DNA of 56,246 nt from Rubrobacter aplysinae (GTDB lineage: Bacteria; Actinomycetota; Rubrobacteria; Rubrobacterales; Rubrobacteraceae), in assembly GCF_001029505.1 (NCBI RefSeq), contig NZ_LEKH01000015.1:1-56246 (forward strand). Reading direction: 5' to 3'. The position numbers were made by a program, and so were the translations under genes. Below, piece after piece: positions 370 to 44,055 of the stretch; position 1 is the first letter of the stretch, and each line of letters begins with the position of its first letter. The notes below the pieces were generated by a model. That model was not told where the DNA came from. It did not search any database and saw only the letters and a list, made by a program, of their open reading frames with translations.

Positions 370-1761
370 TTAAGCTACGAGTAGCATCGGGCTCTCCAGC
401 AGCCGCTTTACCTCGGCCATGTACTGCGCGCCCTCCGCGCCGTTCGCTATGCGGTGGTCGGCGGAGAGGGTGAGCTTCATCATGTTCGCCGCCACGACGT
501 TACCCTCGTCGTCGAAGTCCGGGCGTCGCTGGATGCTGGAGACGGCGACTATCGCGGCCTGGGGCTGGTTGATGATCGCCGAGAAGCTCTCCACCCCGAA
601 CATGCCCATGTTGGAGACCGTGATCGTGCCGCCCTGGTACTCGTCGGGCATTAGCTTACCGTCGCGGGCGCGCTTTGCGAGGTCCTTGGAGGCCCGGGAG
701 ATGGCCGAGAGCGACTTCCCGGCGCAGTCCTTTATGACCGGGGTAATGAGTCCGGCCTCTAGCGCCACGGCCATCGCCATGTTAACCGTCTCGTGCACCT
801 CGATGCCTTCAGAGGTGTACAGAGAGTTGATCTTGGGATACCCGGCGACGGCGAGCGCCACGCCCTTCATTACGAAGTCGTTTACGGAGAGCTTGTCCCC
901 CTGCTCTTCGAGGGCCGCGTTTAGCTGCTTGCGCAGGGCGAGTGCCTCGTCCATCCGCACCTCTACCGTGGCGTAGAAGTGCGGGACCTCCTGCTTTGAC
1001 TGCTGCATCCGCTCGGCGATGACCTTCTGCATCCTGGAGGTCTCCAGGATCTCGGTCCCCTCCGCCCCGGTCGGCGGCGGTAGCTGCGTCTCTCTGGGAG
1101 CAGACTGTGCGGCGGCCTGGGGCTGTGCCTGCTGCTGTGCCTGCTGCTGGCCGTCTCCGGTCTCTTCGGGCGCGGACTCTGGCGCTCTCTTGGCGGTGCC
1201 GCTCTCCATCGCGGCCCGCACGTCACGCTCGACGATGCGTCCGGCGGGACCGCTCCCGTCTACCCGTGAGAGGTCGAGGTCGTTCTCCTTCGCCAGCCGC
1301 CGGACTATCGGGGAGGCGCGGAACTGTCCATTCGAGCTTCCGTTCGCGCCATCTCCTGGAGGCGCCGCCGGCTGTGTCCCGGACTCTGCGCTTTCGCCGC
1401 CTCCGCCGCTCCCGGTCGCGGTAGCCGTTTCGCCGCCGCCTGAGGCGCCTTCTTCCCCGCCGGCCTCTGCCTCGCCGCCACTCGCGGAAGCGCCTCCGGC
1501 GCCACTTTCTGCGGGCGGCTCTTCGCCTTCGGCCAGGATCACGGCCACCGCGTCGCCGACGGGGATGTTGTCGCCTTCGGAGGCCCGGAGCTCGTGCAGC
1601 GTGCCCGAGTTCTCGGCCTCTAGCTCAAGGGTTACCTTGTCGGTCTCTATCTCGGCGAGCGGGTCGCCCTCATTCACCTCGTCGCCCTCGGAGACGATCC
1701 AACGTACGAGGGTGCCCTCCTCCATCGCGTCGCCCATCTTGGGCATAATGACCTCCGGCAT
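370..1761 (-). CDS. Dihydrolipoamide acyltransferase (E2) of a 2-oxoacid dehydrogenase complex
   Basis: This is the core acyltransferase that passes the acyl group from E1 to CoA through a swinging lipoyl arm. Seen in the 463 residues: an N-terminal lipoyl domain (about 1-80) with the ETDKV site (lipoyl Lys42); a Gly/Ala/Ser/Glu-rich linker; a peripheral-subunit-binding domain (about 148-186, RASPIVRRLAKEN); a second Gln/Ala-rich linker; and the C-terminal catalytic domain (about 240-463). The catalytic motif near the end reads DHRIANG (His436, Asn440), where most E2 enzymes have DHRxxDG. The gene is last in an E1-alpha, E1-beta, E2 operon and its ATG overlaps the E1-beta stop by one base (TAATG). 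Pyruvate is the likeliest substrate; a branched-chain complex is possible. No E3 gene is in the window. Confidence 0.9.
   Translation of the reverse strand: MPEVIMPKMGDAMEEGTLVRWIVSEGDEVNEGDPLAEIETDKVTLELEAENSGTLHELRASEGDNIPVGDAVAVILAEGEEPPAESGAGGASASGGEAEAGGEEGASGGGETATATGSGGGGESAESGTQPAAPPGDGANGSSNGQFRASPIVRRLAKENDLDLSRVDGSGPAGRIVERDVRAAMESGTAKRAPESAPEETGDGQQQAQQQAQPQAAAQSAPRETQLPPPTGAEGTEILETSRMQKVIAERMQQSKQEVPHFYATVEVRMDEALALRKQLNAALEEQGDKLSVNDFVMKGVALAVAGYPKINSLYTSEGIEVHETVNMAMAVALEAGLITPVIKDCAGKSLSAISRASKDLAKRARDGKLMPDEYQGGTITVSNMGMFGVESFSAIINQPQAAIVAVSSIQRRPDFDDEGNVVAANMMKLTLSADHRIANGAEGAQYMAEVKRLLESPMLLVA
1123..1146. repeat. Perfect 12-bp tandem duplication inside the E2 linker
   Basis: CTGTGCCTGCTG occurs twice head to tail (1123-1134 and 1135-1146), and a partial third copy follows. 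On the coding strand it produces the repeated Gln-Gln-Ala-Gln pattern of the second interdomain linker of E2 (about residues 205-213). It keeps the frame and sits in a flexible region, as expected of slippage in a tolerant segment. Confidence 0.8.
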
Positions 1762-43566: not shown

Positions 43567-43977
43567 CTACCGGCACTCCTCCGGGTACTGCTCGCAGTAC
43601 GGGGTATCGCCCGGGACCTTGCCGCGGTTGGCCGCCACCCAGTCGTAGACCTTCTCCTGCAGAGAAGGCATGCCGGGCAGCTCGTACAGCCGGTGCGGCA
43701 GCGGGATGCCGGTCGCCACCGCGACCGACATGTTTATGGCCTCCGCCCCCCGGTGGCGCTGCGGGGGATTGCCCGGCTCGCCGGGGACGTAGCTCCAGGC
43801 GGCCGCCTTACAGTCCTCCTCGGAGAGCCCGGCCTCCTCCGGGACGCCGCTCTTCTGATACGGGACCACCGTCACGCGGTGGTTGCGGTCCAGCGCCCCG
43901 ACGAGGCGCGCGCACCGCGTTCAAAAGTGTCAGCCGCCGTCGAATATCAGTACCAGATGCTCGGGTAACGCCGCCAT
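43567..43977 (-). CDS. DCC-family (DUF393) thiol-disulfide oxidoreductase with two in-frame TGA codons; candidate selenoprotein
   Basis: From ATG 43977 (AGGAGG 5 nt upstream) the minus strand reads LVLIFDGG, TGA, HF, TGA, TRCARLVGALDRNHRVTVVP and on to 43567: 136 codons counting both TGAs. The family motif is DxxCxxC. Asp13 is present and codons 16 (43932-43930) and 19 (43923-43921), where the two active-site cysteines belong, are both TGA. All else is intact, including VVPYQ, HRGAEAIN, YELPGMPSLQEKVYDWVAANRG and a Cys-containing end. A SECIS-like hairpin follows. Read through with selenocysteine, the protein has a DxxUxxU site. Without recoding only 15 residues are made, and 102 codons remain open downstream from 43875. 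The family probably acts as a redox protein; its partner is unknown. menA lies 79 bp upstream on the same strand. Confidence 0.75.
43885..43918 (-). promoter_or_regulatory. Candidate bacterial SECIS hairpin after the two TGA codons
   Basis: In the RNA after the second UGA, GCGG (nt 3-6) pairs with CCGC (nt 33-36). After an internal loop GCGCCUC (nt 12-18) pairs with GGGGCGC (nt 22-28, one U-G pair). The apical loop is GUC. The loop starts 18 nt after the second UGA and 27 nt after the first. Bacterial SECIS elements are known to need an apical loop with G in the first two positions about 16-37 nt from the UGA, so both UGAs qualify. A further perfect 7-bp hairpin lies at 43865-43883 but is farther than usual. 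Folding was done by eye. Confidence 0.55.
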
Positions 43978-44055
43978 CCTGGCCTCCTCGTCTTATCGCC
44001 TAGCCGTCCACGGTACAGAGCCTAACAGCATCAGGCCGGAAGGTGTTACAGGGGT

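Follow-up and report, generated by a model that had tools for sequence, protein, structure and literature searches.

A minus-strand frame in a 56,246-nucleotide stretch of the Rubrobacter aplysinae genome (the window) very probably encodes a cytosolic, thioredoxin-fold, DCC1-like selenoprotein with selenocysteine (Sec) at both cysteine positions of the CxxC active site. Two in-frame TGA codons stand where the DCC family has both cysteines of its DxxCxxC motif. Decoding would use the SelA, SelD and SelB route, directed by a hairpin (SL1) and helped by a second one (SL2). We infer Sec insertion at codons 16 and 19, and a diselenide in the resulting UxxU protein. Sec recoding had been proposed in an earlier note made from the letters of this DNA, and it is supported: the refutation tests set out in that note all favoured it wherever they could be carried out. 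The TGA form of the gene also occurs beyond R. aplysinae, in Rubrobacter-type and Chloroflexota bacteria.

A DCC1-like gene interrupted at its active site

The frame starts at ATG 43977 behind a ribosome site, AGGAGG at 43988-43983, that ends five bases from the start codon, and it is interrupted by TGA at codons 16 and 19, as the earlier note had described. After codon 19, the minus strand reads open as far as TAG 43569-43567. With both TGA codons translated as Cys, the protein matches the Pfam DCC1-like family PF04134 over residues 10-123 (E=2.7e-12, 48.4 bits against a gathering score of 27.8). This bears out the proposed DCC/DUF393 membership, with the TGAs on both motif cysteines. The standard ORF listing of the locus gives GTG 43875-43567 alone, a product of 102 aa; the expectation that annotation would start at 43875, without the active site, was therefore correct. 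Features of the locus are collected in Table 1.

Table 1. Features of the candidate selenoprotein locus, in window coordinates.
Feature	Coordinates	Strand	Basis or remarks
DCC1-like (PF04134) thiol/selenol-disulfide oxidoreductase selenoprotein gene (candidate)	43567..43977	-	136 aa; frame, PF04134, orthologues, dN/dS, AlphaFold
Shine-Dalgarno AGGAGG	43983..43988	-	5' of ATG 43977
TGA codon 16, Sec1, predicted nucleophile	43930..43932	-	First U of DxxUxxU
TGA codon 19, Sec2 (predicted)	43921..43923	-	Second U of DxxUxxU
SL1, hairpin that fits the bSECIS model	43885..43918	-	Covariation, synonymous-recoding null, published model
SL2, conserved 7-bp hairpin with CGUGA loop	43865..43883	-	99.3% of cells paired; two-sided changes in 4/7 pairs

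In the AlphaFold model (pLDDT 95, pTM 0.88), residues 16 and 19 sit where the first helix (H17-29) begins, behind a strand at E8-12. The predicted architecture is thus that of a thioredoxin-type fold, whose first strand leads into a helix opened by the motif. A search by sequence found no solved homologue, and the fold search returned weak matches alone, to glutathione transferase (GST) and PDI domains (E 0.016 and up). All 28 aligned relatives match PF04134, and the motif Asp is invariant among relatives. Also invariant in 28/28 are C128 and C135 (PYC-x6-C; 43573-43596, minus strand, codons 128 to 135), which may form a second redox pair or a metal site. The protein is probably cytosolic, since by eye its N terminus carries no signal peptide. 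Identity with TrbB/TraF was rejected on NCBIfam scores far below cut-off, and a phage or plasmid origin was rejected for want of matches. Across the set of DCC loci no neighbouring gene is conserved. Neighbours are common to few genomes, R. aplysinae sharing its own just with its closest relative, and we set operon context aside as a clue to function.

The genome collections searched were samples of genomes. Within the window's family, the DCC gene was found in 12 of 39 genomes, ten of the copies being UxxU (TGA/TGA), two UxxC (TGA/TGC) and none CxxC. None of the 12 has an additional in-frame stop; further stops in relatives, which the earlier note held would count against recoding, are absent from the Sec forms. 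Every family copy has TGA at the codon 16 position, a start 15 codons 5' of it and a purine-rich, Shine-Dalgarno-like sequence. The second position is TGA in ten and TGC in two. A TGA/TGA copy (L030) lies on the complete chromosome of Rubrobacter marinus SCSIO 52915, a member of the same GTDB family. In the Chloroflexota class that was searched (the class of a Thermomicrobiales MAG), relatives occur in 24 genomes: seven are TGA/TGA, one is TGA/TGC and the remainder are CxxC (one a pseudogene). A divergent Chloroflexota clade, drawn from a sample of the phylum, has UxxC, UxxU and CxxU copies; its single CxxU copy (L196) is the sole TGA form found that lacks TGA at the first position. Motif-bearing relatives sampled from the rest of the window's phylum, beyond the family, are all CxxC. 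One CxxC relative (L134) has two in-frame TAGs and is apparently a real pseudogene, in contrast to the TGA forms. Two further candidates for stops as motif codons, a TGA in L080 and a TAA in L083, were rejected because both lie at the C-terminal end.

The alternation of TGA with Cys codons that the earlier note proposed to look for is therefore seen at both motif columns, in all four combinations (UxxU, UxxC, CxxU and CxxC). In a tree built with both motif positions masked, which has few columns and leaves many forks open, Sec and Cys change places at least seven times and CxxC copies are nested among UxxU copies. Judged from these sequences, the pattern is thus one of repeated exchange, not decay. 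Downstream of codon 19, where a Ka/Ks comparison had been suggested, median pairwise dN/dS is 0.33, indicating purifying selection.

Selenocysteine decoding and two conserved hairpins

The Sec genes whose presence the earlier note made a test of its proposal, those for tRNA-Sec, SelA, SelB and SelD, are each present in the R. aplysinae genome. The tRNA-Sec has the anticodon UCA; selB adjoins it and selA adjoins selB, so that the three form one cluster (selA was identified from the translated ORF next to selB, rather than by family search). The selD gene contains one in-frame TGA. Across the 39 genomes of the family, selB is above cut-off in 29 and selD in 30, and full-length selD copies have a TGA with a strong hairpin after it, the loop being about 19 nt 3' of the TGA. 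Given the Sec cluster, the spread of selB and selD, and the TGA and hairpin of selD, the Rubrobacter family lineage reads UGA as Sec and has long done so. The family selD genes (L036, L085-L112), with their in-frame TGA and strongly conserved hairpin, also make a handy reference set of SECIS elements.

Among genomes with a TGA-form DCC gene, selB is above cut-off in 9 of 12 in the family and in 8 of 8 in the Chloroflexota class. The three family genomes with no selB above cut-off are incomplete (60-77%), and a partial selB occurs in one of the three. Many selB-positive genomes retain the CxxC form of the DCC gene, and the DCC family can therefore do without Sec.

The R. aplysinae genome also holds a tRNA-Ser-like gene just past tRNA-Ser(CGA) (L002, about 550-642, minus strand; G000:C6:551-642). 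The arm that should hold its anticodon folds as a perfect hairpin, GGCGAUCC-UUCG-GGAUCGUC, and the gene is therefore without an anticodon loop. The best matches in other family genomes, at 75-81% identity, are no nearer than the genome's own tRNA-Ser, and the gene thus looks like a local duplicate.

Both hairpins are present 3' of UGA19 in every close Sec form. Over SL1 and SL2 together, 93.8% of cells are paired and 8 of 20 pairs show two-sided changes. This covariation was matched by none of 500 shuffles and was lost when pairing partners were slid. We also compared folding with a null in which the protein was held fixed and synonymous codons were drawn at random. The close Sec forms fold better than their recodings (p <0.05 in 20/20, mean z -3.1), whereas the 22 Cys forms show no excess folding as a group (mean z -0.45). 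Synonymous divergence (pS) is 0.35 in the hairpin codons against 0.53 farther on, a difference that conservation of RNA structure in the former would be expected to produce. The CGUGA loop of SL2 is near-invariant, and SL2 pairing survives substitutions of residue 37 (Val, Ala, Thr, Met, Ser) that are matched to codon 33. The RNA may thus steer the protein, residue 37 varying only in ways that preserve the pairing.

The published bSECIS model calls for an upper stem of 4-16 bp, an apical loop of 3-9 nt, an MFE of <=-7.5 kcal/mol, a G within loop positions 1-2 with G or U after it, and 16-37 nt between UGA and loop. SL1 agrees with it throughout. Its region folds at -16 to -25 kcal/mol across the 12 family genes, with stem, loop and MFE inside these ranges. 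By eye, its loop has the required G, reading C-GUC-G in the window (with a U-G closing pair) and GGGUC in two other copies (L020, L023). The apical loop lies about 16-18 nt past UGA19 and 25-27 nt past UGA16, within the permitted spacing for both. SL2 lies 44 nt and 53 nt from the UGAs, beyond that spacing.

A covariance model of SL1 plus SL2 gives the Sec forms tested, which were in its training set, 71-83 bits. With E allowed up to 1, it matched neither the selD loci nor most Cys forms, and scores for Cys forms among close relatives peaked at 20 bits. In the divergent clade, hairpins exceed the synonymous null weakly (z +0.2 to -1.8). A CxxC member of that clade, L168, reaches 34 bits against the RNA model of the Sec forms and has a z of -3.55 against synonymous recodings; it is possibly a relic SECIS left after a switch from Sec to Cys.

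We do not favour SL2 as the dedicated SECIS of UGA19, because it is retained in UxxC forms that have lost that codon. Our best guess is an accessory role, in which SL2 helps rather than serves UGA19. More specifically, SL1 and SL2 could be the two parts of a new SECIS variant for efficient insertion of two Sec residues 9 nt apart, with SL2 binding SelB or pausing the ribosome and thereby sparing the second UGA from termination. We give this bipartite reading a little under an even chance.

Alternative readings of the TGA codons

The alternative that survives best is that UGA16 alone is a true Sec codon, UGA19 being read inefficiently or as Cys, so that the enzyme is mostly UxxC. UGA16 is indeed the constant one of the pair in the family, while UGA19 is replaced by TGC in two members and in one Chloroflexota copy, and the usual nucleophile of a thioredoxin-type CxxC is the first Cys. 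Counter to this, 17 of the 20 close Sec forms retain UGA19 even though a single base change would give a Cys codon, the divergent copy L196 is CxxU, and the distance of the SL1 loop suits the bSECIS model for UGA19 too. We consider a mostly UxxC enzyme unlikely.

Reading of UGA by some other suppressor tRNA (inserting Cys or Trp, for example), rather than by tRNA-Sec and SelB, is very improbable. The anticodon-less tRNA-Ser-like gene might be taken to point that way, but the Sec cluster is complete, a like TGA with its hairpin is present in the family's selD genes, and the hairpins go with TGA, not with TGC. In addition, four family DCC genes (L022-L025) terminate in TGA, so this codon remains a stop where there is no recoding signal. 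The same genes rule out genome-wide reassignment of UGA, which the earlier note had thought unlikely.

Still less probable is that the functional product begins at GTG 43875 and that the sequence upstream is an untranslated leader. Mechanical listing does return that ORF, but the FDG motif, the UGAs, and the start with its Shine-Dalgarno sequence are conserved at the protein level across the family. Furthermore, GTG 43875 falls within the SL2 hairpin, and judged from the structural model, the short form would be missing the fold's opening strand and helix.

A pseudogene or sequencing error, the DCC gene being in decay with a pair of nonsense changes, would accord with TGA as a stop in the standard code and with the decay of L134, but it is refuted and we give it almost no weight: many independent genomes, one of them a complete chromosome, share these two codons, with purifying selection 3' of them, a conserved start and Shine-Dalgarno sequence, and hairpins that covary. 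Two chance nonsense mutations had been called improbable from the window itself, and the same TGAs are now found in nine further family genomes, the first of them in two more, and again in Chloroflexota.

Proposed mechanism and comparison with known systems

For the double-Sec protein that we prefer, SelA and SelD would produce Sec-tRNA(Sec), and SelB carrying it would dock on SL1, just 3' of the UGAs. SL1 would be near enough for both codons, UGA16 being recoded first and UGA19 three codons later. SL2 probably aids by holding or slowing the ribosome or by binding SelB. The enzyme would then cycle between diselenol and diselenide, reducing (or oxidising) some disulfide or peroxide substrate. 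Diselenides are low-potential, and selenols withstand permanent over-oxidation.

These findings add a selenoprotein family whose product is cut short, and stripped of its active site, by standard ORF calling. The four active-site states among relatives make the questions "why Sec" and "why two" testable with natural variants, and the tandem hairpins offer a natural system for asking how one recoding signal handles two adjacent UGAs.

A 2026 review catalogues 119 prokaryotic selenoprotein families or subfamilies, and PF04134, DCC and DUF393 are absent from it (PMC13188914). We found no report in the open-licence literature that joins DCC, PF04134 or DUF393 with selenocysteine or selenoprotein, which agrees with the earlier note's view that a UxxU site would be new for this family. 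A 2006 survey credits R. xylanophilus with five selenoproteins and names SelD (PMC1794560). Given the absence of the family from the catalogue and the literature searched, and the presence of the motif elsewhere, we rate the DCC UxxU protein as a new selenoprotein family, and UxxU motifs as such as already known. SL1 and SL2 are possibly a new two-hairpin recoding element.

The R. aplysinae protein has the domain, the DxxCxxC frame and the length of DCC1-like oxidoreductases (PF04134, DUF393). It differs in that its two motif Cys positions are encoded by TGA; the C128/C135 pair is invariant in the aligned relatives. In Arabidopsis, the complex I subunit carbonic anhydrase 2 is reduced by DCC1, a DxxCxxC thiol-disulfide oxidoreductase (PMC7598583). 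The fold class has a plant member known to protect complex I from reactive oxygen. Among known selenoproteins, the Prx-like thiol:disulfide oxidoreductases (PF00578) likewise have UxxC and UxxU forms with alternation of Sec and Cys (PMC13188914, PMC2398784), but their domain family is not PF04134. FmdB-like and metal-binding (NF041115) selenoproteins are also UxxU, with two Sec (PMC13188914); they have other domain identifiers and, judging by family names, are unrelated to DCC. The DCC gene departs from the usual bSECIS arrangement: its two UGAs, 9 nt apart, have to share one element, and SL2, a further conserved hairpin, lies beyond that element, 44-53 nt from the UGAs.
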